Positions 24,229 to 40,270 of a stretch of 58,598 nt of DNA are shown here, piece by piece (position 1 is the stretch's first letter; every line of letters starts with the position of its first letter). The stretch is taken from contig JAIOYL010000003.1 in assembly GCA_021741195.1 (NCBI GenBank), positions 1 to 58,598 on the forward strand, written 5' to 3'. Source of the stretch: Sneathiella sp. (GTDB taxonomy: Bacteria > Pseudomonadota > Alphaproteobacteria > Sneathiellales > Sneathiellaceae). The notes under the pieces are model-generated. The model saw nothing but the letters and a program-made list of their open reading frames with translations, searched no databases and was not told where the DNA came from. Made by a program: the position numbers and the translations under genes.

Positions 24229-24750
24229 ATGGACTACCCAGGCGCGGAAGTATATTTCGATCAGAACGACCTGATTGTCAGTAAAACCGATCTGAAAGGC
24301 CATATCACCTATGCAAACCACACGTTTCTCGAGATCGCTGGATACGAAGAAAATGAGGTCATCGGCAAGGCGCATAATGTTATCCGGCACGCGAATATGC
24401 CGCGCGGCGTTTTTGAACTTTTCTGGAGTACCATCGCACAAGGCGAGGAAATCTTCGCCTATGTTGTAAACTCTACAAAGAGCGGAGATCACTATTGGGT
24501 CATCGCCCACGTTACGCCAAGTTATGATAACGGAAGAGTCTCCGGATATCATTCGACACGGCGTGTCCCTAATCCACGGACGATCCGAAACGTGATTGAA
24601 CCTCTCTATACCGATTTGAATAGAATTGAGGCCGGATCGTCTAACCGGAAAGACGGTATACAAAAATCCGTCGCCCGCCTGGAAGAGATACTAAATGAAA
24701 AAGGACAGAGCTATAATGAGTTTGTGTCCTCACTGATGAGGGAGCACTAA
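24229..24750 (+). CDS. Aer-like PAS sensor protein
   Basis: A 173-residue cytoplasmic protein with one PAS domain (about 12-115) and a helical C-terminal tail. It aligns by eye with the PAS of E. coli Aer: [36 protein letters not shown] and [10 protein letters not shown]. In Aer this domain binds FAD to sense redox state. Here the positions matching Aer D60 and W79 appear to be N and I, so FAD binding is uncertain. No HAMP, membrane segment or signalling domain is present. The gene ends 1 bp before a soluble chemoreceptor gene, so together they look like a receptor split in two. Confidence 0.87.
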
Positions 24751-24751
24751 A

Positions 24752-25876
24752 ATGAATACGGAACTAAAATCTGGTGTCACTGGACCAATGCCCGTCAGTC
24801 TCGGGAAACTGCAGGAAATCCTGGAAGTAATCGATAATATATGCCGCGGAAACTTTGAAAGCCGGGTCATGACTATTCCGATAGAGGACGGAATGGAAAA
24901 GGCTCTTTGCACCAAGGTCAACGAAATGATTGACCGCGCTGATGCCTATTTGCGCGAGTCCACCGCCTGTTTGGGATTTATTGCAGAAAACCAGTATTTC
25001 AGACGGATCGCGCCCGAGGGGCTCATGGGCTCATACGGAGTGGCCGTTGACAAAATCAACAAGGCCGCAGACGGTGTCGAGCAGAAAATCTCCAAATTTT
25101 CTGATGCCGTCAATTCGATTTCCTCGGCCGCCGAGCAACTCAACACAAGCGCGCAATTCATGGGCAACACTGTTGATAACACCAGCGAAAAGACGGCCGC
25201 TGTTGCCGCGGCTGCTGAAGAAGCGGGAAGAAACACTCAGACCGTTGCCTCTGCCGCCGAAGAGCTCAATACCTCCATTCAGGAAATCAATCGTCAGGTT
25301 ACTCATTCAGCCACCATATCAGCCGACGCTGTTGAGCAGTCAAGGCAGGTGAATGAAATGGTAAGCGGATTGTCCGAAGCGTCTGACAAAATCGGACATG
25401 TGGTCAAGCTGATCAATGACATTGCCGGGCAAACTAAGTTGTTAGCCCTTAATGCGACAATCGAGGCTGCGCGAGCAGGTGATGCCGGCAAGGGATTTGC
25501 CGTTGTGGCCAGCGAAGTGAAAAGCCTGTCCGCTCAAACTGAAAAAGCAACCGAAGGTATCAAATCCCAGGTTGAGGCAATTCAGAAGGCGGCCAGAAGT
25601 GCGGTTACGTCTATTTCGGAAATTGGCAAATCAATTGGCAACATCAACGAAGTTTCTTCGGCAATTGCTTCTGCGGTTGAAGAACAGGGAGCTGCCACCC
25701 AAGAGATTTCACGGAATGTCCAGGAGGCTGCCGCGGGTGTTCAAGACGTAACCTCCAATATCGGAATCGTCAATGACAATGTCAGGCAGGTCAGTGAAAG
25801 TTCCGGTCAGGTCCTTACAGTGGCTAATGAGCTTAAAATCCAAGCTGATCTTTTGACGGGAGTACTAAACGGATAA
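24752..25876 (+). CDS. Soluble methyl-accepting chemotaxis protein
   Basis: A 374-residue chemoreceptor without membrane segments. The N-terminal ~115 residues are helical (with [13 protein letters not shown], a HAMP-like start, and [19 protein letters not shown]). The signalling coiled coil covers about 115-370, with the tip at about 223-258: [20 protein letters not shown] followed by [16 protein letters not shown], which contacts CheA and CheW. There is no C-terminal CheR/CheB pentapeptide. Start is 1 bp after the PAS gene stop, so translation is probably coupled. No che genes are in the window; it must feed a pathway encoded elsewhere. Confidence 0.92.
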
Positions 25877-25978: not shown

Positions 25979-27223
25979 CTAGATCGGCAGGACACCGACC
26001 ACAAGCAATATGGAACTCGCAATAAACCCCATTACGGGCACCCATATCGGCACCAGAAAAATCTCGCCGGAGGGCGGAAGCGATGTCAGCTTGATACGTA
26101 TCAGTGCGAGATTGACGAAGATAAATACAGTCAGGACAATAGTTGACGTTGATCCAGCAAGCTGTGCGATAGGAAGGAAATAGGCCAGAAAAAGCACGAT
26201 ACCAACGATTAACGCGGTCGCAATCAAGGGTGTACGCGTCACGGGATTAACAATGGCGAAGAATTCGGGCAGGTTCTTTTGCGATGCCAAGCCGTAAATA
26301 ACACGCGAGGCCATGATTACCTGTATAAGGACGCCATTGATTGTGGCGACAATTGCAATCCCGTGGAACACACCGCTTGTGGAAGCTTCGGCCCCTTCGA
26401 AAATTAGCGCAAGCGGCGCGGCGGACCCTGTCAGTTCATCCATCGGAACGACAAGGACAACCACCGAGACAACAGCGAAATAGAGTATGGTGGCAATGAT
26501 GAGCGTGAGAATAATTCCCATTGGGAGCGTCTTGTACGGCTCTATGATTTCTTCCGCGACATTTGCCATGTCTTCGAACCCGATAAAGGCGAAGAAGGCC
26601 AGTAAACTTGCCGATATGATTCCGCTCCAGGCGCTCATCTCGAAGGGCGGAATCAGAGTTCCGACTTTCGTCAAAATCTCCGGTTCTGAGCTAATGCCAT
26701 AAACTATAGCCAGAGCAAGCCCGCCAATCTCGACCACGGTAAAAACCGCGGCGAGCAAAACCGACTCAAATATCCCCCAGGCGGCAATCAAGCCAACCAG
26801 CAGAATTACCAAAACTGTCAGCAATTCTTGCGATAATGGAACCACCTCACTGAGATAGGCGGCCGCTCCGATAGAGACTGCCGCAGAAGAAACAACGCCG
26901 GATGCGGCAACCATGAGCCCGATAATGAGCGTCAGGTTCCTGGAATTAAATCCCGCACGTACATATGCAGCCTCGCCTGCACTTACAGGATACCGCGTCG
27001 ATAGCTCTGAATAAGTAAACCCTGTAAAGGTAACGACGGCGGCCGCGACGAGAAAAGAGATCGGTGCATAAACGCCTGCCTTAGCGGCCGTCGTTCCGAC
27101 AAGCACATAAATTCCGGCGCCAATAGTAACACCCAATCCGTAAAGAGTGAGAAGTGGCAGCGAAAGCTTGCGCTTCAGCTCGGGCTGCCCAGCAGGCTCC
27201 GTATACACATCTGTGTTTTTCAT
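25979..27223 (-). CDS. APC superfamily amino acid permease
   Basis: A 414-residue integral membrane protein with about 12 segments. The N-terminal LSLPLLTLYGLGVTIGAGIY is the TM1 motif with the GAGIY unwound substrate site. FFAFIGFEDMANVAEE in the middle is the TM6 region of the amino acid-polyamine-organocation family. Substrate is not predictable. AGGCG lies 6 bp before the ATG. It is the third gene of a minus-strand operon after the LonB-like protease and Usp-like protein (44 bp gap). Confidence 0.9.
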   Translation of the reverse strand: MKNTDVYTEPAGQPELKRKLSLPLLTLYGLGVTIGAGIYVLVGTTAAKAGVYAPISFLVAAAVVTFTGFTYSELSTRYPVSAGEAAYVRAGFNSRNLTLIIGLMVAASGVVSSAAVSIGAAAYLSEVVPLSQELLTVLVILLVGLIAAWGIFESVLLAAVFTVVEIGGLALAIVYGISSEPEILTKVGTLIPPFEMSAWSGIISASLLAFFAFIGFEDMANVAEEIIEPYKTLPMGIILTLIIATILYFAVVSVVVLVVPMDELTGSAAPLALIFEGAEASTSGVFHGIAIVATINGVLIQVIMASRVIYGLASQKNLPEFFAIVNPVTRTPLIATALIVGIVLFLAYFLPIAQLAGSTSTIVLTVFIFVNLALIRIKLTSLPPSGEIFLVPIWVPVMGFIASSILLVVGVLPI

Positions 27224-27267
27224 TTTCGCCTATTATCAAATGAGCGCCAACCGGGAAATATGGCCGT

Positions 27268-28110
27268 TTATTGAAGGAGTAAAAGAGGATGCCGACTTTC
27301 CAATAAACGCTCTGCATTTAAATTCAGATTAAAAAACTGCCCCCACTCGGTGATGACCAGTATGCAGTCTGCGGGATGAATTGATTGCAAAACGGATGCG
27401 ACATCCTGGACGACAATCGGCGCAATTTTTATACCCTTTTCCTCTTTCGGATTAATGTCCTCAATGTCTGTCGCCAGTTTTTTGGCATCCTCTGCGGCCA
27501 TTCCATAAGGCAGCAGCATAATTTCCTTCTCTCCGGTGCCCGAAAGCGCCAGCGCGGCCTGCAGCCCTTTGCGGGCCGCATCGACACTATCGCAAACAAC
27601 AACAAATTTCTTGGTCAGTGATTTCCCGCCTTTTAGAAGCAATGTCGGCCGCATAATGTTCTGCAAGGCGCTCCGCTTCGAAGAACGGGTTCGATAAAGC
27701 CGCGAGTGCAGCCGACCGGTCCCCTCGATAATAATCAGATCTGTTTCCGGCATGGATTTTTCCTGCTCCAGCCAGAGGTCGCCACTGACGGCATGGAACC
27801 CGACCGTCACCTTCCTCCGGCTACCGGCCCGCTCCAGTTGCCGCCGGACGCTACTTGCCATCGCGCGAAGCTGTGCGTCCAGCGTTAGCTTGTCCAGATT
27901 ACGCGCAATTGGTGACGACAACCTGAATTCACGTATAAAATCAAGCTCTCCGACTGTGACAAGATCACTGTCCTCAATAAATATTCCCTGTAATCCAACT
28001 CCCAGCCGGGCGGCGATCTCTATCGCCGCAGCCATTGTTTCCCGGCAATGTGTCGCGGCGTCCATTTGCAACAGAACTCTATGATATTTCTGAACCACCA
28101 TATCAACCAT
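27268..28110 (-). CDS. Universal-stress-protein-like protein, two-domain
   Basis: I choose the ATG at 28110, which overlaps the LonB-like stop by 8 bp (a downstream ATG at 28101 is possible); this gives 280 residues. The first half has a Usp-like strand-helix pattern (YHRVLLQMDAATHCRETMAAA, GLQGIFIEDSDL, DLIIIEG). A second, weaker Rossmann-like repeat begins at KKFVVVCDSVDAARKGLQAAL. The ATP-binding G-x2-G-x9-G-S/T motif is not clear, so nucleotide binding is doubtful. Its tight coupling to a Lon-type protease suggests a shared stress role; that is inference. Confidence 0.7.
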   Translation of the reverse strand: MVDMVVQKYHRVLLQMDAATHCRETMAAAIEIAARLGVGLQGIFIEDSDLVTVGELDFIREFRLSSPIARNLDKLTLDAQLRAMASSVRRQLERAGSRRKVTVGFHAVSGDLWLEQEKSMPETDLIIIEGTGRLHSRLYRTRSSKRSALQNIMRPTLLLKGGKSLTKKFVVVCDSVDAARKGLQAALALSGTGEKEIMLLPYGMAAEDAKKLATDIEDINPKEEKGIKIAPIVVQDVASVLQSIHPADCILVITEWGQFFNLNLNAERLLESRHPLLLLQ

Positions 28111-30547
28111 CGCTCTGACCCACCGGTTTGTCTTCCGATACAGGCCTGACATATTTTCGGGCCATTTCTGCAAAAGCTTCCAAGCGCGCTTTTACCCGAC
28201 CGTTGATGGAATCCGGTGGATATTTTCCGTCCGCGCTCATCTCTCCAGCCGGTATGCCGGTGAGGACTTCGATCCCTTCATCAATTGTCGAAATTGGGTA
28301 AATGTGAAACTCACCTTTCTCCGCCGCCTCGACGACCTCGTCCTTCAGCATCAAATGTTTAACATTCGAGGCAGGAATGAGGACACCCTGTTCGCCTGTC
28401 AGGCCGCGAAAGCGGCACAAGTCAAAGAATCCCTCGATTTTCTCATTAACCCCGCCAATAGCCTGAACTTCACCAAATTGGTTGACCGACCCGGTAACTG
28501 CCAGTGATTGCCTGATGGGCACCTCCGCCAAAGCCGACAGCAGCGCATAAAGCTCGGTCGACGATGCACTGTCGCCATCTACGGCGCCATAGGATTGCTC
28601 GAAAACCAGACTTGCGGTGAGAGACAAGGGCTTATTCTGCGTATAACGCGCCGCCAGAAAATTGGACAAGATCAGGACACCCTTTGAATGTAGAGGGCCA
28701 CCAAGTTCAACTTCCCGTTCAATGTCTACCACCCGGCCGCGACCAAGATGGACACGCGCTGTAATGCGGCTTGGCCTGCCAAAGGAAAAGTCTCCCAGTT
28801 GCAGGACGGACAGGCCATTTATCTGGCCGACCTTCTCCCCCGATGTATCCAACATCATAATGCCGCGCTGGAACTGTTCTTGCGTCCGCTCCCGCATGCG
28901 GTCGGAGCGGTGAATATGCGCGGCAATGGCCTGCTTGACATCCTCACCACCAATCAATTTGGCGCCGCGCGTGGAAGCCCAATGATCCGCTTCTGAAAGC
29001 AAATCGCCAAGCGAGCGGGCGTGGCTTGACAGCCGCTCGGTATCACCTGTCAGGCGCGTCATGCGCTCAAGAACCTGTGAAACGCCGCCCTGATCCAACG
29101 GCAGCAGATTCTTCTTGCGTGCTTCCGTCGCAATGAAGCGAGCGTACAGCGCAATTGCCTGATCGGTTACCGGCATGCGGTCATCAAAATCGACAGGGAC
29201 TTTAAAAAGATTGTGAAAATCAGGATCATGCTGGCTGAGGAGGTAATAAAGCATCGGATCACCAATCAAGATGACCTTTACGTCGAGCGGTATCGTCTCA
29301 GGCTGTAAACTGACCATACTGCCGAGTGACATCATTTGCGACAGGGATTCAATCCTGATTTCGCGACTGCGCAACTCACGTTTCAGGGTTTCCCATGCAA
29401 AAGGCTGAAAGATCAGCCGGCGCGCATCAAGAATAAGATAGCCTCCGTTCGCCCTGTGCAAGGCACCGGGTTTTATCAGTTGAAAATCGGTCACCAGATT
29501 TCCAAATTCCGATCGATGCTCAATACGGCCCAGCAAATTCTCAACGGTCGGATTGTCTTCATAGACAATCGGCGCGCCGCCATTGGCATCATGGCTGACC
29601 AAGACATTGATCCGGCAATTGCTAATGACACTGTCTTGCTGTCGGATAAAATCAGCCGCCATTCTGGCTGGAATTGTCTGTGCCGCTTCATCCTTGCTAA
29701 GTCGGAAAACGTCGCTATGCCCGATAACATAATCCTGTACACTATCCAGGAAGGCGACGACAGCCGCGCAGTCCTTCCAGTGTTCGCGGTTTTCATCAAT
29801 AAGATGGTCAACGGCGAAACTCGTGACCTCCCGATTCAGGTTGTTGATTTCCCGGCGCTGCTCGCGTTCCAGCTCCGGAAGCATCCGGACAGCGGACTGC
29901 AGATCACCTTCAAGCCCACTGATATCTTTCTTGATGGTTTCCTGCTCTTCCTGAGAAAGTTTGGAAAAAGCTTCCGGATCCAGAACTTTCCCCTCCCGCG
30001 CGGGCGCCAAAGCCAGCCCCATCGGCGTGCGAACAAGAGCGATGTTTTTCTCGCCAGCCTTTTTTTGCAGTGTCTCAAACGCCTCTTCCTGCCGAATTTT
30101 GAATTGCTCGACGATGACATCCAGTCGTGTCTGGTAATCTTCACTTTCAAAAGCCGCCGAAATTACGACTCTGACCTCTTCCGTCAAACTTTCCATTTGC
30201 TTGGCCAGTTCATTGGCGCGGCCCGCCGGCAGACGCAGTACTTTCGGTTGGTCAGGTACGGCGAAATTATTTATGTAGCACCAATCGTCAGGAAGGGGTT
30301 TACTGGCGGCTTCGGGCTCCAGATAACGCCGGATTGTTTCCGTTTTTCCGGAACCTGACGCACCAAATGCGAATAGGTTGAATCCATGGTGGCGTACACC
30401 GATACCAAAGCGAATGGCATTGACCGCACGCTCCTGACCCAAAGGCTCGAGCAATTCCTCTAGTTCGGATGTATCCTTGAACCCAAGCGCGCAGAGATCA
30501 TACCGACGGCATAAATCTGACGCTGGCAATGCCTTGATTTCCGCCAT
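28103..30547 (-). CDS. LonB-like ATP-dependent protease (Lon family S16)
   Basis: An 814-residue protein starting at the ATG at 30547 (AGAGGG 8 bp upstream; a TTG codon precedes it). Walker A is GASGSGKTETIRR near residue 65. A long helical insertion with two coiled-coil-like stretches follows (about 110-260). The C-terminal peptidase has the Ser-Lys dyad S660 in GDSASSTE and K703 in GGVNEKIEGFF, 43 residues apart as in E. coli Lon. There is no N-terminal LAN substrate domain, as in the YcbZ/LonB-like branch. First gene of an operon with the Usp-like protein and APC permease. An FNR-type box is not apparent upstream. Confidence 0.9.
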   Translation of the reverse strand: MAEIKALPASDLCRRYDLCALGFKDTSELEELLEPLGQERAVNAIRFGIGVRHHGFNLFAFGASGSGKTETIRRYLEPEAASKPLPDDWCYINNFAVPDQPKVLRLPAGRANELAKQMESLTEEVRVVISAAFESEDYQTRLDVIVEQFKIRQEEAFETLQKKAGEKNIALVRTPMGLALAPAREGKVLDPEAFSKLSQEEQETIKKDISGLEGDLQSAVRMLPELEREQRREINNLNREVTSFAVDHLIDENREHWKDCAAVVAFLDSVQDYVIGHSDVFRLSKDEAAQTIPARMAADFIRQQDSVISNCRINVLVSHDANGGAPIVYEDNPTVENLLGRIEHRSEFGNLVTDFQLIKPGALHRANGGYLILDARRLIFQPFAWETLKRELRSREIRIESLSQMMSLGSMVSLQPETIPLDVKVILIGDPMLYYLLSQHDPDFHNLFKVPVDFDDRMPVTDQAIALYARFIATEARKKNLLPLDQGGVSQVLERMTRLTGDTERLSSHARSLGDLLSEADHWASTRGAKLIGGEDVKQAIAAHIHRSDRMRERTQEQFQRGIMMLDTSGEKVGQINGLSVLQLGDFSFGRPSRITARVHLGRGRVVDIEREVELGGPLHSKGVLILSNFLAARYTQNKPLSLTASLVFEQSYGAVDGDSASSTELYALLSALAEVPIRQSLAVTGSVNQFGEVQAIGGVNEKIEGFFDLCRFRGLTGEQGVLIPASNVKHLMLKDEVVEAAEKGEFHIYPISTIDEGIEVLTGIPAGEMSADGKYPPDSINGRVKARLEAFAEMARKYVRPVSEDKPVGQSDG

Positions 30548-30785
30548 CAATCGATCCCTCTTGATTTTCCTACCTTAGTAATACTAGCACACTATGAACC
30601 TCTCAATATGAGTCAAATCAAATCAGTCGGCAAATTCTGCTTATTGACTTTTCATGTTGCTAGCATCAATTCCGTCATTTTTAATCGCAAGCTTCCGAAA
30701 GACAGATTGTAGGCATCAAATCCGGCACGAATTTATTCTCGACAGTTAGAAATGAAAGTGCGAACCTTTTTTCGCAGCCTTCAAC

Positions 30786-31088
30786 GCACCTGCCATTCAG
30801 AAAATGCCGGTGATGCTGATCGCTGACGAACCAACATCGGCGCTCGACGTCTCCGTTCAGGTGGAGTTTCTTAATCTGCTGACTGACCTACAAACAGATC
30901 ATAATCTCACCTATCTTATGGTTTCACACGATCTGCCTGTCGTCGCGCATATGTGCGATCGCGTCGCGGTCATGCAATTTGGAGAGATTGTTGAAGTAAT
31001 GACCATAGAAGAAATGCGGGAAATGCAACCCAAACATGCTTATACCCGTCATCTCTTACAAAGTTCTCTGGGCTATAGGCGCAAATAG
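30786..31088 (+). pseudogene. 3' relic of a peptide-type ABC transporter ATPase
   Basis: A ~100-codon fragment matches only the last third of an Opp/Dpp-type ATPase. It keeps Walker B and D-loop (LIADEPTSALDVSVQ), the H-loop (MVSHDLPVVAHMCDRVAVM) and the C-terminal HAYTRHLLQSSLG. Walker A, the Q-loop and the LSGGQ signature are missing. In-frame stops at 30747 and 30753 close the frame just upstream. No permease or binding-protein gene of this type is adjacent. It is best read as a decayed remnant of a lost peptide transporter operon. Confidence 0.75.
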
Positions 31089-31131: not shown

Positions 31132-31174
31132 TTGATCTTGATCAATGTTGCGGCGCACAAATTCTGTATAGAAT
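31132..31174 (+). promoter_or_regulatory. FNR/FixK-type box and -10 element upstream of phaC
   Basis: TTGATCTTGATCAA (31132-31145) is a perfect FNR/Anr/FixK consensus, TTGAT-N4-ATCAA. A TATAGAAT (31167-31174) lies downstream so that the box centre falls at about -41.5 from the expected start point near 31180, the class II activator position. The phaC ATG is at 31222. The match and spacing are seen; activation under low oxygen is inferred. Confidence 0.75.
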
Positions 31175-31221
31175 ACATTAAGTTTTGCCCTTTCATAAAC
31201 CGATCGGCCAACAGGAATTTC

Positions 31222-33138
31222 ATGAACATGAAAAATACACCTACCGACGTCAATAAAACTCCTCCTTCTCATAATGCGGGGGCGTTAAAAACTATCCCCT
31301 CGCTGCCAGTGAAAAGACGCAGTAAATCGCTTGAAGTTAGCGGTAAAAAGGACAAACCGCATTCTGTCAAGCAGGAGCCGGTCACGTCGCCGTTCGAGCG
31401 CGATTCCTATTTTTCAACCTCGATTCAGGAAATTCTCGACAGATCGACGCACGCCATGGCCGCGCGATTTACCGGCGGGCTTTCCCCGAGCGCTTTGGCT
31501 TCCGCTTATGCGGACTGGGCAGTACATCTGGCGTCATCACCCGGCAAGCAAATTCAGCTTGTGGAAAAAGCCGCGAAGAAAAGTCTCCGATTGGCAAACT
31601 ATACGTCACAATGCGCAGATAAAAGCAAGGCGTCCCCACCCTGTATTGAGCCATTGCCGCAAGACAAGCGTTTTTCCGACAAGGCATGGCAAGCATGGCC
31701 CTATAACCTTATGCATCAGTCATTCCTGATGAACCAGCAATGGTGGCATAACGCGACAACAGGCGTGCGCGGGGTGACGAAACAGCATGAAAATGTCGCG
31801 GAGTTCGCCACGAGGCAGATTCTCGATATATTTTCTCCCTCCAACTATTTTCTGACAAATCCGGAAGTCCTCCAGAAAACGGCGGAGGAAGGCGGCCAGA
31901 ATCTTGTGCGCGGATTTCAGAATTTCGTCAAAGACGTCGAATATGCGGTCAGCGGCAAGAAGCAAGCGGATGTCGAGAAGTATGAAGTTGGCAAAAATCT
32001 TGCCGTGACGCCGGGCAAGGTTATATATCGCAACCGGTTGATCGAACTCATCCAATATGAGCCTGTAACGGAAAAGGTTCATCCGGAACCCATCCTGATT
32101 GTACCGGCATGGATCATGAAATATTATATTCTCGATCTTTCCCCTGAGAACTCTCTCATCAAATATCTAACCGAACAGGGCTTCACGGTTTTCGTTATTT
32201 CATGGAAAAATCCGGATCCGAAGGATCGGGACCTTGGAATGGATGACTACCGCAACCTCGGTGTCATGGACGCGCTTGATGTCATCAGTAAGATTTTACC
32301 AAACCAAAAAATTCATGGCGTTGGTTACTGCCTCGGCGGGACCTTGCTCACAATTACCGCTGCCGCCATGGCGCGGGACGAAGATGAGAGGCTGAAGACG
32401 GTTTCCCTGTTCGCGTCACAGGCGGATTTCACGGAAGCCGGCGAGTTGATGCTGTTCATCAATGAAAGCCAGGTCACCTTCCTGGAAGATATGATGTGGG
32501 AGCAAGGGTATCTTGATACAACCCAGATGGCCGGCGCGTTTCAGTTGTTGCGCTCGAATGACCTGATCTGGTCGCGGATGATCCACAATTACCTGATGGG
32601 TGGTACGGTGGAGTTAAACGACCTGATGACCTGGAACGCAGACGCAACCAGAATGCCTTACAAAATGCATTCGGAGTATTTGCGGCAACTTTTCCTGAAC
32701 AATGACCTTGCTGAAGGCCGATTATTAGCGGAAGGCCGCCCGATAACGGTTTCGGATATTCGCGTTCCCATTTTCGCGGTTGGCACGGAAAAAGATCATG
32801 TTGCGCCGTGGCATTCGGTTTACAAATATCATCTTCTCACCGATACGGAGATCACTTTCCTGCTCACCAACGGCGGACATAACGCGGGTATCGTCTCCGA
32901 GCCTGGCCATCCACACCGCAACTATCGGATTGGAATCAGTAAAGCGGATGACCGTTACCAGAATCCTGAAGAATGGTATGCTGAAACACCTGAACAGGAA
33001 GGATCGTGGTGGCCGGAATTCATTACCTGGCTGAAGAACCGGTCAGAAGACGGGACATCACCACCCCCCATGGGTCTGACGGAAAAGGGCCAAAAGTTGA
33101 TTGGCAACGCTCCTGGCAGCTATATCTATCAAAAGTAG
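31222..33138 (+). CDS. phaC: Class I poly(3-hydroxyalkanoate) synthase
   Basis: I start at the ATG at 31222 (AGGA 8 bp upstream), giving 638 residues. The PHA synthase N-terminal domain spans about 60-300. The alpha/beta hydrolase catalytic domain carries the lipase-like box GYCLGG with nucleophile C370, and D525 (GTEKDHVAPW) and H553 (NGGHNAG) complete the triad. It polymerises (R)-3-hydroxyacyl-CoA into PHA granules. The first ~55 residues are a low-complexity basic and proline-rich extension. First gene of an operon with fabI, the MaoC-Pta fusion, ackA, sulP and a kinase; a phasin follows. Confidence 0.95.
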   Translation: MNMKNTPTDVNKTPPSHNAGALKTIPSLPVKRRSKSLEVSGKKDKPHSVKQEPVTSPFERDSYFSTSIQEILDRSTHAMAARFTGGLSPSALASAYADWAVHLASSPGKQIQLVEKAAKKSLRLANYTSQCADKSKASPPCIEPLPQDKRFSDKAWQAWPYNLMHQSFLMNQQWWHNATTGVRGVTKQHENVAEFATRQILDIFSPSNYFLTNPEVLQKTAEEGGQNLVRGFQNFVKDVEYAVSGKKQADVEKYEVGKNLAVTPGKVIYRNRLIELIQYEPVTEKVHPEPILIVPAWIMKYYILDLSPENSLIKYLTEQGFTVFVISWKNPDPKDRDLGMDDYRNLGVMDALDVISKILPNQKIHGVGYCLGGTLLTITAAAMARDEDERLKTVSLFASQADFTEAGELMLFINESQVTFLEDMMWEQGYLDTTQMAGAFQLLRSNDLIWSRMIHNYLMGGTVELNDLMTWNADATRMPYKMHSEYLRQLFLNNDLAEGRLLAEGRPITVSDIRVPIFAVGTEKDHVAPWHSVYKYHLLTDTEITFLLTNGGHNAGIVSEPGHPHRNYRIGISKADDRYQNPEEWYAETPEQEGSWWPEFITWLKNRSEDGTSPPPMGLTEKGQKLIGNAPGSYIYQK

Positions 33139-33147
33139 GCCGCAAAG

Positions 33148-33918
33148 ATGCTTCGAAACCTTATTGAGGGCAAGCGTGGGTTGGTCATCGGGATTGCCAA
33201 TGAACATTCCATTGCGGCAGGTTGCGCGCGCGCCTTCCGGGACGCCGGAGCAACGCTCGCGGTTACATATCTTAACGAGAAGGCCCGTCCCTTCGTTGAG
33301 CCTGTCGCCCGCGATGTCAATGCGGAGATTATTTTGCCGCTTGATGTAGAAGATAACAATCAAATGGCAGCGGTATTCGAGAGAATATCAACGGATTGGG
33401 GGCAGCTCGATTTCCTTTTACATTCCATTGCCTTCTGTCCGGAAATCGACTTGCATGGACGCGTAATAGATTGTTCACGGACCGGCTTTGCGAAGGCAAT
33501 GGACATTTCCTGCCATTCCTTCATTCGTCTTGCAAAGCATGCCGAGCCATTAATGAAAAAAGGCGGGAGTCTTCTAACCGTGAGTTATTATGGCGCCGAA
33601 AAAGTCGTAGATCACTATAATATCATGGGTCCGGTCAAGGCAGCGCTTGAGGCATCCGTGCGCTACCTTGCCGCCGAATTGGGGCCAGACGGCATTCGGG
33701 TCAACGCCTTGTCACCCGGTCCGTTAAAAACACGGGCGGCCTCCGGGATTGAGCATTTCGATCAGTTGATTGATGAAGCCTGCGCCCGTGCGCCCCGGCG
33801 TCATTTGGTCACCCTTGAGGATGTTGGCAACATGGCCGTGGGCCTGGTCAGTGATGCCGCCCGAAATGTAACCGGCAATATCGCCTATGTGGATGCGGGC
33901 TATCACATTATGGCCTGA
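33148..33918 (+). CDS. fabI: Enoyl-ACP reductase, FabI type
   Basis: A 256-residue SDR-fold enzyme. GLVIGIANEHSIAAGCARAF is the FabI nucleotide-binding start with its SIA motif; DFLLHSIAF follows; the active site is HYNIMGPVKAALEASVRYLA with the Y-x6-K arrangement unique to FabI. The usual reaction is NAD(P)H-dependent reduction of trans-2-enoyl-ACP in fatty acid synthesis. Being 9 bp after phaC, this copy is probably an operon-dedicated paralogue that works on PHA or acyl intermediates; a housekeeping copy may exist elsewhere. Confidence 0.9.
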   Translation: MLRNLIEGKRGLVIGIANEHSIAAGCARAFRDAGATLAVTYLNEKARPFVEPVARDVNAEIILPLDVEDNNQMAAVFERISTDWGQLDFLLHSIAFCPEIDLHGRVIDCSRTGFAKAMDISCHSFIRLAKHAEPLMKKGGSLLTVSYYGAEKVVDHYNIMGPVKAALEASVRYLAAELGPDGIRVNALSPGPLKTRAASGIEHFDQLIDEACARAPRRHLVTLEDVGNMAVGLVSDAARNVTGNIAYVDAGYHIMA

Positions 33919-33932
33919 GCAGGATGCTTGAA

Positions 33933-35327
33933 ATGCAATATATCGAGAATAAAACCTTCGACGAAATCAAGGTGGGCGACGCGGCGGAACTGACGCGCAA
34001 ATTGAAGTCAGAGGACATTGAACTTTTCGCCGTGATGTCCGGAGATGCCAATCCGGCGCATATTGATACGGAATATGCCAAGTCGGACATGTTTCATAAA
34101 GTCATTGCCCATGGGATGTGGGGCGGCGCCTTGATTTCCGCGATTTTGGGTACGGAATTACCTGGCCCCGGAACCATCTACCTCAATCAATCCCTGAAGT
34201 TCCTGAAGCCCGTTGGACTCGGCGATACAGTGCTGGTCCGCGTGACCGTTTCGGAAAAAATCGAAAAAGGTAACCGGCTGAAGCTTGACTGCTCCTGCGT
34301 CAATCAGGATGGCGAAATAGTTATTGAAGGCGAAGCGGAAGTAATCGCGCCGACGGAAAAAGTTAAAAGACCCCGTGTGTTGCTGCCGGAAATCCATCTG
34401 CACGAAACCGGATCCCAATATCAGAAGCTGATCGACGCCACCCGCGATCTCGACCCGATCCGGACAGCGGTGGTCCATCCTTGCGATACAATATCGCTGA
34501 TCGGTGCGCTGGAGGCGGCCAGTCAAAAACTTATTGTTCCAATTCTAATTGGTCCAAAAATCAAAATTCTCGCTGCGGCGGAGGAAGCGAAAAGGAGCCT
34601 TGAGGGGGTTGAGATCATTGACGTCCCGCATAGCCACGCCGCGGCTCAAAAGGCCGTTGAACTGGTTCGCCAGGGCGCGGTAGATGCCTTGATGAAAGGA
34701 AAATTGCATACCGATGAGATTATGGAAGCGGTCGTCGACCGGGAATGTGGGATCAAAACCGAGCGCCGGATCAGTCATGTCTTTGCGCTTGACGTCCCGC
34801 ATTACCCGAAGCCCCTGTTTATTACGGATGCGGCAATCAATATTTATCCCGACCTCAATGACAAGAAAGACATAATACAGAACGCAATCGAACTCGCACA
34901 CGCGCTCGGCATCCCCACGCCAAAAGTCGCCATTCTCTCCGCTGTGGAAACCGTCTATCCCAAAATCGCTTCGACAATTGATGCCGCCGCGCTTTGCAAG
35001 ATGGCGGATCGCGGTCAAATCACGGGGGGATTGCTTGAAGGTCCGCTAGCCTTCGATAACGCAATTTCAAAATCAGCAGCCGAGGCGAAGGGCATAGAAT
35101 CCGAAGTGGCGGGCGACGCCGATATCCTTGTCGTCCCTGATCTGGAAGCGGGCAACATGATCGCGAAACAGCTTATTTATCTGGCGGGCGCGGAGTCCGC
35201 CAGTATTGTCCTTGGCGCGCGCGTTCCCATCGTCCTGACAAGCCGGGCGGACGGAACCTTGTCCCGGCTTGCTTCCTGCGCTCTCGCGCAACTCTATATT
35301 CATCATTCGCGGCGTATCGCCCCATGA
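33933..35327 (+). CDS. Bifunctional MaoC-like enoyl-CoA hydratase / phosphate acetyltransferase
   Basis: The ATG at 33933 has AGG 9 bp upstream and begins MQYIENKTFDEIKVGD; an earlier ATG at 33924 is possible. The N-terminal ~140 residues are a MaoC/PhaJ hotdog domain with the hydratase motif MSGDANPAHIDTEYA and IAHGMW. The C-terminal ~310 residues are a phosphate acetyl/butyryltransferase (for example LMKGKLHTDEIMEAVVD, LDVPHYPKPLFITDAAINI, GGLLEGPLAFDNAIS). Such fusions form (R)-3-hydroxyacyl-CoA and interconvert acyl-CoA with acyl-phosphate. The stop overlaps the ackA start. Confidence 0.92.
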   Translation: MQYIENKTFDEIKVGDAAELTRKLKSEDIELFAVMSGDANPAHIDTEYAKSDMFHKVIAHGMWGGALISAILGTELPGPGTIYLNQSLKFLKPVGLGDTVLVRVTVSEKIEKGNRLKLDCSCVNQDGEIVIEGEAEVIAPTEKVKRPRVLLPEIHLHETGSQYQKLIDATRDLDPIRTAVVHPCDTISLIGALEAASQKLIVPILIGPKIKILAAAEEAKRSLEGVEIIDVPHSHAAAQKAVELVRQGAVDALMKGKLHTDEIMEAVVDRECGIKTERRISHVFALDVPHYPKPLFITDAAINIYPDLNDKKDIIQNAIELAHALGIPTPKVAILSAVETVYPKIASTIDAAALCKMADRGQITGGLLEGPLAFDNAISKSAAEAKGIESEVAGDADILVVPDLEAGNMIAKQLIYLAGAESASIVLGARVPIVLTSRADGTLSRLASCALAQLYIHHSRRIAP

Positions 35328-36517
35328 TGGAAGTGGTTCTCGTTCTGAATGCTGGCTCGTCCAGCATCAAATTTGCCGTTTACCTGGCGGCCACGTCGGT
35401 CGGCAATCCTTTGATCCGCGGCAAGATAGATGGCATCGGGCGGGCACCGACCTTTCGCGCCCGTAATGCTGAAGGAGGCGACTTGGAAGCTGGCAACCTC
35501 GCCGCGCTCGATATTTCCAACGATCATCGCGAATTGACCGACCGTCTTCTGACCTGGCTGGAAAGTCACGATCAAGGCAACAAAGTGATCGCTGTTGGCC
35601 ACCGTGTGGTCCACGGTGGCCGCTACTTCAGGGTCCCCGTTCTGGTCAATGAGGATATTTTGCGGAAACTGTCGGAACTCATCTCCCTCGCGCCCCTTCA
35701 TCAGCCCAATAACCTCGAACCAATTAAAACCCTGTTGAAAAGAAACCCAACGCTTCCGCAGGTCGCCTGTTTCGATACCAGTTTTCACCGCACGCAGCCA
35801 CGGATTTCAGAGCTCTTCGCTCTGCCCCGCACCCTTACGGACGAAGGCATAATCCGGTATGGGTTTCATGGTCTCTCATATCAATATATCGCAAATGCAA
35901 TGTCGCCTCATCTCGGTGAGCAGGCAGGCGGTCGCGTGGTGGTTGCTCATTTGGGAAATGGGGCCAGCCTCTGCGCCATGAAGGAAAGGCGGAGCGTGGC
36001 CACAAGCATGGGATTCACGGCTCTCGACGGGCTGGTGATGGGGAGCCGCTGCGGCACACTCGATCCCGGCGTTGTTCTGTATCTGATGCAGGATCGTGCG
36101 ATGAATGCGGAGCAAATCCAGCATCTCCTCTATCACGAATCCGGATTGCTCGGCGTGTCCGGCATAAGCAACAATATGCAGGTTCTGCTGCAAAGCACAC
36201 AACCTGAGGCCAAGGAGGCCGTCGATCTGTTCTGCTATCGCGCGGCGAGCGAGCTAGCGGCGCTCATCGTCCCGCTGGAGGGTTTGGATGCAATTGTCTT
36301 TACCGCCGGCATAGGGGAAAATTCGGCCGAGGTGCGCCGACGGATCTGTGCGCACCTCAAATGGCTCGGTGTCGAACTGGATATGGCGGCAAACCAAGCC
36401 AACAAACCTGTAATCAGCACCTCCACATCTAAGATTGCCATTGCCGTTATCCCGACGGATGAAGAAAGGGTGATCGCCGACGCCACTCGTACTATCTTGT
36501 TTGACAAGACTGGGTAA
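35324..36517 (+). CDS. ackA: Acetate kinase family protein
   Basis: A 397-residue ASKHA-fold kinase. LVLNAGSSSIKFAVY is the N-terminal acetate kinase signature, YGFHGLSYQYIA the second; VVAHLGNGASLCAM, TALDGLVMGSRCGTLDPG and FTAGIGENSAEVRRR are also present. It makes ATP and acetate from acetyl-phosphate (or the reverse). It overlaps the Pta fusion by 4 bp, so acetyl-CoA to acetate conversion is encoded as one unit inside the PHA operon, consistent with low-oxygen ATP formation. Confidence 0.94.
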   Translation: MMEVVLVLNAGSSSIKFAVYLAATSVGNPLIRGKIDGIGRAPTFRARNAEGGDLEAGNLAALDISNDHRELTDRLLTWLESHDQGNKVIAVGHRVVHGGRYFRVPVLVNEDILRKLSELISLAPLHQPNNLEPIKTLLKRNPTLPQVACFDTSFHRTQPRISELFALPRTLTDEGIIRYGFHGLSYQYIANAMSPHLGEQAGGRVVVAHLGNGASLCAMKERRSVATSMGFTALDGLVMGSRCGTLDPGVVLYLMQDRAMNAEQIQHLLYHESGLLGVSGISNNMQVLLQSTQPEAKEAVDLFCYRAASELAALIVPLEGLDAIVFTAGIGENSAEVRRRICAHLKWLGVELDMAANQANKPVISTSTSKIAIAVIPTDEERVIADATRTILFDKTG

Positions 36518-36524
36518 AAAATAC

Positions 36525-38252
36525 ATGAGAACCGCAGCCATAGAAAATCTACTCCCGGCCTACAAATGGATGCGGGAATACCGGTTTCAGGATTTTCCGG
36601 GGGACCTGACGGCTGGGATTATCACTGCGATCCTGCTCGTTCCGCAAGCGATGGCCTATTCGATTCTGGCGGGACTTCCACCGGAAGTCGGTCTCTACGC
36701 CAGCATTGCACCCCCCATTCTCTACGCGCTGTTTGGCAGCAGCCGTGCTCTCGCCGTGGGACCTGTCGCCGTAGCCTCGCTGATGGTAGCGAGCGCGCTC
36801 GGCACCATCGCTGTTCCCAAATCTCCGGATTATATCGCCTCCGCGTTAATTCTTGCAGTGTTGACCGGTATTTTCCTCATTTTCATGGGCGTTGCCAAGC
36901 TTGGGTTTCTCGCAAACTTTTTAAGCCACCCGGTCATGTCCGGCTTCACCAGCGCGGCCGCAATCGTGATCGCTTTCAGCCAGTTGAATCATCTTCTAGG
37001 TCTCAATATCCCGCGCGGATCGCGAATTGACGAGGCTGTCCTTTATGTCTTTTCGCATCCCGGCGACGCCAATCTGACAACCGTCACCGTCAGCGCCGCA
37101 GGCCTGATTTTGCTTCTTTTTCTGCGCTGGTATTTAAACCCCCTGCTTGACCGGTTTGGCCTACATTCTGGTGTCGGCAACGCTCTGGTCAAGGCGGGGC
37201 CGATGTTTGTCGTGATCCTCATGACATTTCTTTCTGCCAAAATGCTATGGAATGAAACGGCGGGACTGGTGGTTGTCGGCGATATTCCAGCTGGCCTGCC
37301 GCCTCTTACAATTCCCGCTTTCGACGTTGGCGTATGGACACATCTCAGCGCCTCTGCTGCCCTTATCGCCCTGGTGAGTTTTGTCGAGAGCGTCGCCATC
37401 GCCAGAGTTCTTGCAAGCCGACGGCGCCAGAAGATAGATGTCAATCAGGAATTGGTCGGATTGGGGGTCGCGAATATCGGCGCGGCCTTTACCGGTGGTA
37501 GCCCGGTCTGCGGCGGTTTCAGCCGTTCCGTAGTGAATTTCTCCGCTGGCGCCAATACCCAGCTGGCGGCGATATTCACGGCTATCCTGATTGCTCTCTC
37601 CGTCCTGTTCTTCACACCTCTCTTTTACTATCTGCCGCAGGCCGTTTTGGCGGCAATCATCATCATTGCCGTTCTCGGGCTTGTCGATCTGAAAGCCCTC
37701 AGGGTCAATTGGCTCTATAGCAAAAGCGATGCCGCTGCCTGGATAGTGACGTTCGCCGTTGTTATGGTTGAAGGAATTGAATTGGGAATTGTCGCCGGTA
37801 TCCTAGTGTCGATCGTCCTGTTCCTGTGGCGAAGCAGCCAGCCCCATATTGCCGTCGTCGGCCGGGTGGGCGGCAGTGAGCATTTTCGTAATGTCAAACG
37901 TCATAAGGTCCAGACCTGTCCGCATGTGCTGGCAATCCGGGTAGACGAAAGCCTGTTTTTTGCCAACACCCGTTCGTTCGAAAACTATGTCCTGTCCGCC
38001 GTTGTTGACCAGCCTGAGGTAAAGCATGTCGTCTTTATCTGCAGCGCGATCAATGCCATTGATGGAAGCGCATTGGAATCCCTCGAACAGCTTGTCTCGG
38101 ACTTGCGAAGTGCCAGCGTTACCTTTCATCTCGCAGAAGTAAAAGGACCCGTCATGGACAGGCTCGAAAAAACGGATTTCCTCGAGCATCTGAAACCGGG
38201 AAATGTCTTTCTCAGCACACATGACGCCTTCGTGGCGCTGGACTGCACCTGA
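36525..38252 (+). CDS. SulP family anion transporter with STAS domain
   Basis: I use the ATG at 36525 (575 residues) rather than the TTG at 36501. The N-terminus FPGDLTAGIITAILLVPQAMAYSILAGLPPEVGLYAS is the SulP family signature (shown in part: PQAMAYSILAGLPPEVGLYA). Some 10-12 membrane segments follow, then a cytoplasmic STAS domain (about 440-560, CSAINAIDGSALESLEQLV). Members carry sulfate, bicarbonate, dicarboxylates or other anions; the substrate is not set by sequence. It lies 7 bp after ackA and overlaps the kinase gene by 1 bp. Acetate or bicarbonate transport would fit the context but is speculative. Confidence 0.9.
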   Translation: MRTAAIENLLPAYKWMREYRFQDFPGDLTAGIITAILLVPQAMAYSILAGLPPEVGLYASIAPPILYALFGSSRALAVGPVAVASLMVASALGTIAVPKSPDYIASALILAVLTGIFLIFMGVAKLGFLANFLSHPVMSGFTSAAAIVIAFSQLNHLLGLNIPRGSRIDEAVLYVFSHPGDANLTTVTVSAAGLILLLFLRWYLNPLLDRFGLHSGVGNALVKAGPMFVVILMTFLSAKMLWNETAGLVVVGDIPAGLPPLTIPAFDVGVWTHLSASAALIALVSFVESVAIARVLASRRRQKIDVNQELVGLGVANIGAAFTGGSPVCGGFSRSVVNFSAGANTQLAAIFTAILIALSVLFFTPLFYYLPQAVLAAIIIIAVLGLVDLKALRVNWLYSKSDAAAWIVTFAVVMVEGIELGIVAGILVSIVLFLWRSSQPHIAVVGRVGGSEHFRNVKRHKVQTCPHVLAIRVDESLFFANTRSFENYVLSAVVDQPEVKHVVFICSAINAIDGSALESLEQLVSDLRSASVTFHLAEVKGPVMDRLEKTDFLEHLKPGNVFLSTHDAFVALDCT

Positions 38253-39817
38253 TGTCCAAGATACCCACGACCCTGCAACAAGACGAGCTTATCGCCTTTT
38301 TGAAGGATGCGGGCAGTTATCCCGAAAACCCTGACCATGTCGATTTTCACGAGACACATGGCGCCATGATCTTTCTGGCGGGCTGTTTTGCCTACAAGAT
38401 CAAAAAAGCCGTCAAATTTCCCTATATGGATTTTTCGACCCTGGAAAAGCGACATCATTTTTGTGCACGCGAACTTGAGATCAATCAGCCGCACGCACCC
38501 GACCTATATCAGTGCCTCGTCGCGATCACGCAGAACGAAGACGGATCGCTAACTCTCGGAGGAGATGGCACCGTCGTTGAATGGGCGCTAAAGATGAGAC
38601 GGTTCGATCAGAACAGGATGCTGGACCGGTTGCCGCATTCGGTTGTCATGGAGAAGACGCTGGTCAACAAACTGACCGAGGCAGTTTTTAAGTATCACCA
38701 GGCTGCGGCGAGGATAAACGTCGCGGATGGTCCGCAGAGAATGCAGCTTCTTATTCAGGAATTACTGGACAGCTTTCATGCCTCGCGGGACGTTTTCACG
38801 CCTGGAACGGTAAAAAGCTTTGAAATGCTGGCCATGGCCCTACTTGAACGCGCCCATTACTGCTTGCGTCTCAGGGGTCGGCGCGGGTTCATCCGGCGCT
38901 GCCACGGAGACCTTCATTTGCGTAATATTGTTTTGATGGGTGAGCAGCCCGTACTTTTCGATGCGCTTGAATTCGATGAAGATCTGGCGACAACAGACGT
39001 ACTTTACGATCTGGCCTTCCTGTTGATGGACCTTGACCAGCGCGGCATGAGTCCCGCCGCCAACAGGGTCTTGAACCGGTATCTGTATTATTCCAACGCA
39101 CTTGAGGATATTTATGGCCTGATCGCGATGCCGCTGTTTCTGGCCATAAGGGCGGGCGTTCGCGCAATGGTCGCGGTCGATCATGCCCGGCAGCTCGCAG
39201 GAGATGCGGCGGCCAAGGAACTGACGGCGGCCGATCAATATTTCTTCACAGCCTTGCAATATCTGCAACAGAAGCCGCCCATCCTGATTGCGGTTGGCGG
39301 ATTTTCAGGTACCGGCAAAACGACTCTGGCCGAACTATTGGCGGGATCGCTGGAACATGCGCCAGGCTTCCTTCACTTTCGTTCCGATCTGGAGCGAAAA
39401 TCCCTGTTCAATGTTTCCGAGACCGAGCGTCTGGACCCAAGTTGCTACACAATGGAAGTCAACAAACAGGTTTATGGAAAGTTGCTTCACAAGGTGCGAA
39501 TAGCGCTCAAAGCCCACCAGCGGGTCATTGTTGATGCGGTATTCTCCAAACCCGAAGAGCGGGCGGAGTTTGAAGCGCTTGCTAAAAAATTTGATATTCC
39601 CTTTATCGGCCTATGGCTGGAAGCCGACGAGGAACTGATCGCATCCCGTGTCACGGCTCGAACAATGGACGCATCAGACGCCACGCCTGCTATTGTCCAT
39701 CAGCAGGTGGCGCGTGGTGTTTCCAGCATCCAATGGCACAGGATCGATGCCAGCGGCACCGAATTTGAAACCCTGAAAAACGTCATGGCTATTCCAGAAA
39801 TATCTAATATTGACTGA
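38252..39817 (+). CDS. Bifunctional aminoglycoside phosphotransferase-like / AAA (zeta-type) kinase
   Basis: A 521-residue fusion. The N-terminal ~320 residues have an APH-like kinase fold, with catalytic CHGDLHLRNIVLM and metal-binding LFDALEFDEDLATTDVLYDLAF. The C-terminal ~190 residues are a P-loop kinase (GGFSGTGKTTLAELLAG) with DAVFSKPEERAEFEALAKK. Proteins with this architecture include Mycobacterium tuberculosis Rv2004c, a member of the hypoxia DosR regulon, but the substrate is unknown. Start TGATG overlaps the SulP stop. An FNR-like box overlaps the stop codon. Confidence 0.88.
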   Translation: MSKIPTTLQQDELIAFLKDAGSYPENPDHVDFHETHGAMIFLAGCFAYKIKKAVKFPYMDFSTLEKRHHFCARELEINQPHAPDLYQCLVAITQNEDGSLTLGGDGTVVEWALKMRRFDQNRMLDRLPHSVVMEKTLVNKLTEAVFKYHQAAARINVADGPQRMQLLIQELLDSFHASRDVFTPGTVKSFEMLAMALLERAHYCLRLRGRRGFIRRCHGDLHLRNIVLMGEQPVLFDALEFDEDLATTDVLYDLAFLLMDLDQRGMSPAANRVLNRYLYYSNALEDIYGLIAMPLFLAIRAGVRAMVAVDHARQLAGDAAAKELTAADQYFFTALQYLQQKPPILIAVGGFSGTGKTTLAELLAGSLEHAPGFLHFRSDLERKSLFNVSETERLDPSCYTMEVNKQVYGKLLHKVRIALKAHQRVIVDAVFSKPEERAEFEALAKKFDIPFIGLWLEADEELIASRVTARTMDASDATPAIVHQQVARGVSSIQWHRIDASGTEFETLKNVMAIPEISNID

Positions 39818-39823
39818 GATCAA
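39810..39823 (+). promoter_or_regulatory. Second FNR-like box, upstream of the phasin gene
   Basis: TTGACTGAGATCAA matches TTGAT-N4-ATCAA at nine of ten specified bases. It overlaps the stop codon of the kinase gene and ends 66 bp before the phasin ATG at 39890. A clear -10 at the matching distance is not obvious (an A/T tract is there). Confidence 0.5.
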
Positions 39824-39889
39824 TGCCGGAAAGCAGCATTTCTGCAAAAATTTTTTGATGTTAGCCCGCATTTACCGAAAGGAATGAAA

Positions 39890-40270
39890 ATGGCGCAGAA
39901 AAGCTCTCCCACTTCACAAGATAAGACACTCTTTAGCTTCGCTCCGCCCATGGATTTGCAAGCGACAATGGACATCAACCAAAAGCTTTTAAAGGCCATG
40001 CAGGTGTATAATGAAGAACTGGTAACCTTTGGCAACAATCGCCTGAAAGAGGATCTCGCCGTTTCGCAGAAACTGGCGGAATGCAAAACGGCGCAGGATT
40101 TTATCGGTGTTTATACAGACTTCTATCAAAGAGCTCTAAAACAATATGCGGAAGAGGCGCAAACTCTAGCCAATATTTACACAGTATTCACGAGTGAAAA
40201 GGATAAAGCAACGGTCGCATCCAACAAACCGGAAAATTCAGATATGCCCGAATCAAAAAAACAGGAGTAA
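39890..40270 (+). CDS. Phasin family protein
   Basis: The ATG at 39890 has AAAGGA 6 bp upstream; one at 39884 is too close to it. The 126-residue protein is mostly helical with MDINQKLLKAMQVYNEELVTFGNNRLKEDLAVSQKLAECKTAQDF (partly shown here: LVTFGNNRLKEDLAVSQKLA), the phasin pattern of amphipathic helices. Phasins coat PHA granules. The acidic, disordered C-terminus ends NSDMPESKKQE. It is 72 bp after the kinase gene and may have its own FNR-like promoter. Confidence 0.87.
   Translation: MAQKSSPTSQDKTLFSFAPPMDLQATMDINQKLLKAMQVYNEELVTFGNNRLKEDLAVSQKLAECKTAQDFIGVYTDFYQRALKQYAEEAQTLANIYTVFTSEKDKATVASNKPENSDMPESKKQE

Follow-up and report, generated by a model that had tools for sequence, protein, structure and literature searches.

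Does oxygen govern an operon that pairs a PHA synthase with a route from acyl-CoA to ATP, and does it do so alone? The question is raised by a stretch of Sneathiella sp. DNA of 58,598 nucleotides (contig JAIOYL010000003.1 of assembly GCA_021741195.1; hereafter the window), in which an FNR/FixK-type box stands just ahead of such an operon (Table 1). Oxygen control of PHA synthesis and PhaR control are each already known separately. The reading that we favor, with a probability of about 0.68 on the evidence of the sequences compared here, is an oxygen-controlled class II FnrN/FixK promoter that drives the phaC2 operon and incorporates a PhaR-type operator at a fixed phase. The finding is a further case of known phaC2 oxygen control, plus a fixed FNR-PhaR element, and it is this element that looks new.

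Table 1 Features of the phaC2 operon and its promoter in the window
Feature	Coordinates	Strand	Remarks
FNR/FixK-type box TTGATCTTGATCAA	31132..31145	+	Exact; at most one mismatch in 8/8 family phaC2 promoters
Candidate PhaR-type operator TGCGGCGCACAA	31149..31160	+	TGC-N3-GCA dyad; separated from the box by 3 bases and upstream of the -10
-10-like TATAGAAT	31167..31174	+	Hexamer TAGAAT at 31169-31174; predicted start about 31179-31181
phaC2-clade PHA synthase, 638 aa	31222..33138	+	Best model class I TIGR01838, below cut-off; GYCLGG, KDH, GGHN motifs
FabI-type enoyl reductase paralogue	33148..33918	+	PRK07533 above cut-off; Y-x6-K
Fused MaoC hydratase and phosphate acyltransferase	33924..35327	+	PRK08190, PRK11890 above cut-off
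Acetate/propionate-family kinase AckA	35324..36517	+	TIGR00016 above cut-off
SulP permease with STAS domain	36501..38252	+	TTG start per ORF list
APH-like and AAA_33 (P-loop) kinase-like protein	38252..39817	+	Profile match
Second FNR-like box TTGACTGAGATCAA, one mismatch	39810..39823	+	Overlaps the APH/AAA gene end, upstream of phasin
Phasin_2 gene	39884..40270	+	Start per ORF list; another ATG at 39890

Materials and Methods

The source genome (3.38 Mb, 220 contigs, 92% complete) was set beside a family sample of 25 genomes, in which phaC orthologues were accepted at E up to 1e-150, and a class sample of 385 genomes, 243 of which gave a PhaC match with E of 1e-60 or lower among the matches listed (at most three candidates scored per genome). 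The phaC2 clade set consisted of the 55 listed matches at ~46% identity or more and the window (n = 56), and the phaC1 controls were 20 of the matches at roughly 40% identity, all of them in genomes where phaC2 is present as well. A quick tree was computed from 74 of these 76 rows, i.e., 54 phaC2 (two of the 56 were removed by a length or stop filter) and 20 phaC1. A further set of named loci, chosen by MaoC-Ptb, comprised the best 80 of at least 504 relatives; 31 of them had a phaC match, and 24 of these entered the phaC test; of the other seven, six had too little sequence upstream and one had too low an identity. Flanks of the boxes in the source genome (n = 16) were oriented by the analyst toward the next gene. 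The table of box spacings among the fetched loci is biased, most of these loci having been picked for spacing 4.

Results

The box and its promoter geometry

The exact TTGATN4ATCAA claimed by the first-pass annotation is present, and it is the sole occurrence in the window. A -10 at class II spacing had been proposed as well, and TATAGAAT bears this out: if TAGAAT is taken as the -10, the predicted start lies at ~31181 and the box is centered at -42.5, and if TATAGA is taken, the predicted start lies at ~31179 and the center at -40.5. Both candidate hexamers fit class II geometry, the box center falling near -41.5 for the predicted start. The phaC ATG at 31222 is in frame with a listed ORF whose start falls within the box. 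The best TATAAT-like hexamer at an offset of 19-24 matched 4.19 of 6 bases in the genome's own box flanks (16 flanks, 14 boxes), against 3.24 (SD 0.20) in base shuffles, none of 2000 of which reached 4.19; in 16 boxed relatives, the -10-like hexamer had 3.38 vs. 2.46 matches.

Conservation of the box in the family and the class

This phaC was found in 8 of the 25 family genomes (7/24 in the genus), and all eight have a box with zero or one mismatch ahead of it, exact in five (the window, L052, L255, L256, and L260) and with one mismatch in L257, L258, and L259. The first-pass annotation had stated that its reading would fail if close relatives kept the operon but not the box; no such case was seen among these genomes. 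In G342, the upstream DNA has mostly diverged, except for one block with the box, the spacer, and the -10. A -10-like hexamer at offset 23 is shared by four of the eight promoters (TAGAAT in the window, TAGTAT in L052, TATATT in L255, TATAAT in L256), that of L260 (TATTTT, 4 of 6 bases) lies one base nearer the box, and those of L257, L258, and L259 are weak. L258 has an additional one-mismatch match farther upstream, without a PhaR-type element after it. The phaC2 match of L260 (G403:C286), a locus on a short contig, stops early with an in-frame TAG close to the contig end, and either the assembly breaks off there or the gene is degraded.

Across the class, boxes that are exact or one base off were found within 500 bases upstream of 17 of the 56 phaC2 loci (window included; four exact), compared with none of the 20 chosen phaC1 controls and 0.9% of shuffled regions. 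No box with zero or one mismatch was present within 500 bases in the other 39 phaC2 loci, so control is not universal, or the sites are weaker or more distant. The two sets separate in the quick tree (SH-aLRT = 100), with the phaC2 clade apart from the housekeeping phaC1. In the loci chosen by MaoC-Ptb, the box stood ahead of phaC in 6/24, ptb in 3/80, fabI in 0/33, and ackA in 0/74, at a background rate of 0.0225 per 500 bases; 18 of the 24 phaC loci had no box with zero or one mismatch within 500 bases. Spacing and conservation make FNR/FixK control of the phaC operon very likely.

A PhaR-type element beside the box

The first-pass description of the promoter was right about the box and the -10 but made no mention of the PhaR-type site that separates them. 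TGCGGCGCACAA equals 11 of the 12 bases of one of the two PhaR boxes of Bradyrhizobium diazoefficiens phaP1 listed in the available part of PMC10888616, where mutation of the boxes weakened PhaR binding, and it fits the pattern given there, NGCN3GC(G/A)N3, which is a loose one. In the family, TGC-N3-GCA-(C/A)AA lies exactly three bases past the box in all eight promoters, with GGC, AAT, ACT, or ATT as N3. There was no TGC-N3-GCA within 45 bases of the genome's other 19 exact boxes (one of these is at a contig end, with 22 readable bases).

Among the 17 boxed class loci, the motif occurs within 40 bases in four (the window, L052, L060, and L098; shuffle mean = 0.16, P = 0.0002), or in 3 of 16 when L052 is left out (P = 0.0004), and these P values, which are partly post hoc because the window itself suggested the motif, flatter it. 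Support from outside the family comes only from L060, which belongs to another family and has the same 3-base phase, and from L098, which has another phase. When one mismatch is allowed, the 12-base pattern is no commoner in the window than chance predicts (9 sites, against 16 expected). Exact TGCN3GCACAA occurs 22 times in the genome and the reversed pattern 9 times; the two of the 22 assigned so far are both tied to PHA genes. The C215 phasin gene has the PhaR-type sites TGCACTGCACAA and TGCAGTGCAGCA at -110 and -49; an FNR-like match is found there only at two mismatches. The composite of box and PhaR-type element was found in 4 of the 385 genomes, those of the window, G342, and G107 (all at phaC2) and G227. 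In the last (locus L261), it stands ahead of an Hsp20 gene.

These data bear on whether the locus is a plain FNR/FixK promoter, in which TGC-N3-GCA would be a conserved spacer (e.g., a contact of RNA polymerase or alpha-CTD) or the site of some other protein. The box evidence in class (17/56) and family (8/8) is what such a promoter predicts, FixK2 activates B. diazoefficiens phaC2 in vitro (PMC9104804, available part), and TGC-N3-GCA is absent from the 40 bases past the box in 13 of the 17 boxed class phaC2 loci. The dyad, however, is constant in 8/8 family promoters around a center that varies, as expected of an operator; the other 19 boxes of the genome are without it, and the C215 phasin promoter bears it twice. 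We consider a plain promoter unlikely and prefer a PhaR-type operator at fixed phase. Within the open-licence literature (main texts), we found no report of FNR and PhaR control in one start site at a fixed phase.

Exact boxes across the genome and candidate regulators

The scan of the genome for the same motif, which the first-pass annotation had proposed, returned 20 exact sites against 6.3 (first-order Markov) to 7.8 (second-order Markov) expected. Spacings N0-N12 together gave 106 matches, and the twelve spacings other than N4 averaged 7.2; they were used as the control in place of the backward-read pattern (0 matches), which contains CTA and TAG words and was judged poor. Roughly one third of the 20 exact sites could be due to chance. 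By the analyst's reading, 14 lie ahead of a gene start, 5 are inside long frames, and 1 is unclear; one of the 14, in L117, falls in addition inside a 73-codon frame at the edge of a contig. Genes downstream of exact boxes include ccoN (cbb3 oxidase), the PEP synthase gene ppsA, an Hsp20 gene, and genes for two hemerythrin proteins, a host-attachment protein, cytochrome b561, and a DksA-like protein.

The profile search of the genome gave 14 matches, five of them Crp/Fnr proteins above the HTH_Crp_2 cut-off. The best candidate regulator for the phaC box, judged by its residues and gene neighbors, is the Fnr at G000:C9, which has cluster-like cysteines (a CxxC-x7-C motif and a central cysteine) and a matching recognition helix (ETVSR). 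When it is aligned with a solved FNR-type regulator, two N-terminal cysteines and the central one coincide and the third is offset by two residues; its scores on the NCBIfam FnrL, FixK, and Fnr models are below the cut-offs. Its gene immediately precedes a HemN-like gene and ccoN, the latter carrying the same exact box. A PhaR-family gene (PHB_acc_N) is also present in the genome, at G000:C22.

NnrR-, DNR-, and CRP-like proteins can share TTGAT-type half sites. A protein of one of these kinds, among the five Crp/Fnr proteins of the genome, might use the box, with NO or something else as the signal, but the cluster-like cysteines of the Fnr encoded beside hemN-ccoN speak against it. So does the partial overlap between the genes with exact boxes and the FixK2 targets of B. 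diazoefficiens (ppsA, an Hsp gene [hspC2], host attachment, and phaC2; PMC9104804, available part), and control by another Crp/Fnr protein is quite improbable. A chance match, with the operon free of oxygen control, is hardly credible, and it is rejected because of conservation (8/8 family promoters, a fixed phase to the next element, and 0/20 phaC1 controls), not because of the genome-wide counts, which still allow for 6-8 chance sites.

Operon genes and chemistry

Successive genes from phaC through fabI, maoC-ptb, ackA, sulP, and APH/AAA are separated by 9, 5, -4, -17, and -1 bases, small gaps that suggest a single transcript, in agreement with the layout first annotated. The catalytic motifs of the predicted synthase PhaC are present, and the MaoC domain has a GDxNPxH motif. 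The transferase scores 485 bits on PRK11890 (phosphate acetyltransferase; cut-off 413) and less on narrower models, with 310 on TIGR02706 (phosphate butyryltransferase; cut-off 410) and 68 on TIGR00651 (classical Pta; cut-off 311). The first-pass annotation had the route run from acyl-CoA to acetate. Passing PRK11890 favors this, but the higher of the two sub-cut-off scores is that of the butyryltransferase model, and the fusion to MaoC also keeps acetate from being settled as the product; acetate is possible, and butyrate or 3-hydroxybutyrate are others.

In the seven family loci with enough downstream sequence, maoC-ptb and ackA are present in 7/7, sulP and APH/AAA in 4/7, and fabI in 3/7 (L260 was omitted, its contig ending ~1 kb into the operon). 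SulP and APH/AAA, which the first-pass annotation had named in combination with the storage and ATP genes, were accordingly dropped as essential parts of the operon, and FabI as a fixed part. Rv2004c of the DosR regulon was considered as a relative of the APH/AAA protein, but the texts found on it do not describe its domains, and kinship is not claimed.

Proposed mechanism

From the sequence, the spacing, the conservation, and the regulator genes, we infer binding, activation, repression, and metabolic flux as follows. At low oxygen, an FNR/FixK protein, most plausibly the Fnr at G000:C9, would bind at 31132-31145 and recruit RNA polymerase to the -10 at 31167-31174. PhaR free of polymer granules would bind TGCGGCGCACAA at 31149-31160, a place downstream of the -35 position, upstream of the -10, and within the footprint of polymerase, and would block the start. 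The operon would be expressed at low oxygen in the presence of polymer, with PhaR drawn off. PhaC2 would then make or modulate granules, and MaoC-Ptb and AckA would turn acyl-CoA into acid and ATP.

A bolder version, which we offer tentatively and regard as rather unlikely in full, takes the composite TTGAT-N4-ATCAA-TGY-TGC-N3-GCA-(C/A)AA as an AND-NOT gate and places the operon at the (R)-3-hydroxybutyryl-CoA branch point, where it would feed fermentation. The element, phase-fixed across the family and recurring in another, would respond to low oxygen AND to PhaR sequestered by nascent polymer. At the branch point, (R)-3-hydroxybutyryl-CoA could be polymerized (PhaC2) or dehydrated (MaoC), reduced (FabI, where present), and phosphorolyzed (Ptb), with ATP formed by AckA, and stored polymer would support a small butyrate- or acetate-type fermentation upon failure of respiration. 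The butyrate reading is weakened because FabI is present in only 3/7 family loci and PRK11890 is above its cut-off. If true, the composite element would offer a testable reason for phaC2 paralogues being kept beside the housekeeping phaC1, and carbon storage would be tied to substrate-level ATP formation.

Relation to known systems

The oxygen-linked control suggested in the first-pass annotation is probable on sequence evidence, but it is not new, a link between phaC2 and oxygen being already in print. In Herbaspirillum seropedicae, Fnr1 directly regulates the operon dksA-phaC2-fabI-Hsero_2407 (ChIP-seq and RNA-seq; PMC5934665, available part). Both there and in Sneathiella, phaC2 is followed by fabI in one operon, with direct Fnr control established in the former and predicted in the latter. 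According to the same text, the H. seropedicae operon has dksA before phaC2, whereas that of Sneathiella is without dksA, continues with maoC-ptb, ackA, sulP, and APH/AAA, and has a PhaR-type site between the box and the -10.

The B. diazoefficiens gene phaC2 (bll6073) is activated by FixK2 in vitro, and the box given for it is TTGATGCAGCTCAA (PMC9104804). A phaR mutant has 6.8-fold more of its transcript (PMC10888616), and low oxygen induces the gene, with PhaC2 assumed inactive (PMC9104804, PMC10888616, PMC6515984; available parts). The phaR effect may be indirect, via fixK2. This system resembles ours in the phaC2-type gene, the FixK2-type box, and a link to PhaR (putative in ours), but the available text of these papers lists no operon and no fixed FNR-PhaR element. 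A box identical to TTGATGCAGCTCAA stands ahead of phaC2 in L096, without TGC-N3-GCA in the 50 bases past it. An in silico reconstruction of the FnrN/FixK regulon in Alphaproteobacteria suggests phbC control in some Rhizobiales (PMC4999443); the control of phbC is alike, but the part of that paper available has neither the operon nor a PhaR element. Further links of Fnr, Anr, or CydR to PHA are listed in a review (PMC9049629, available part).

The gene order is in part known as well. The synteny phaC1-fabI-(hydratase/Pta)-ackA in Cobetia and Halomonas is discussed for PHA from acetate (PMC8686332), with phaC followed by fabI, and bi-pta and ackA further downstream, as here; the available text is without Fnr control, whereas the Sneathiella operon has an FNR-type box. 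The lxa locus of Burkholderia cenocepacia is a block of genes for low-oxygen survival with six universal stress proteins (PMC6127331, PMC3759415). The available text of these two papers names no phaC-ptb-ackA block, and membership of the lxa locus is not claimed; the protein of the window labeled Usp-like has no Pfam match.

Phasin and flanking genes

The phasin gene starts 66 bases past APH/AAA and has a one-mismatch box of its own at -74 (Table 1). In L256, a one-mismatch box lies in nearly the same place before phasin, at -72, and the phasin gene on G000:C145 has TTGACCCAAATCAA at -76.

Between the box and a LonB-like gene, a 95-codon frame at 30804-31088, with the words ADEPTSALD and HDL, resembles the end of an ABC transporter ATPase by eye and has no Pfam match; DNA similar to it is found just upstream of the box in L255 (G386). 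A divergent group at 25979-30550 on the minus strand encodes a LonB-like protease with a LonC helical domain, a protein that the analyst labeled Usp-like, and an amino-acid permease. Relatives of the LonB-like and Usp-like proteins recur at the same place in L052 and L256, and a relative of the permease in L256. On the plus strand at 24229-25873, near the putative low-oxygen cluster, a gene for a PAS-domain protein is followed immediately by one for a methyl-accepting chemotaxis signaling protein, and the two are possibly a redox or oxygen taxis pair.
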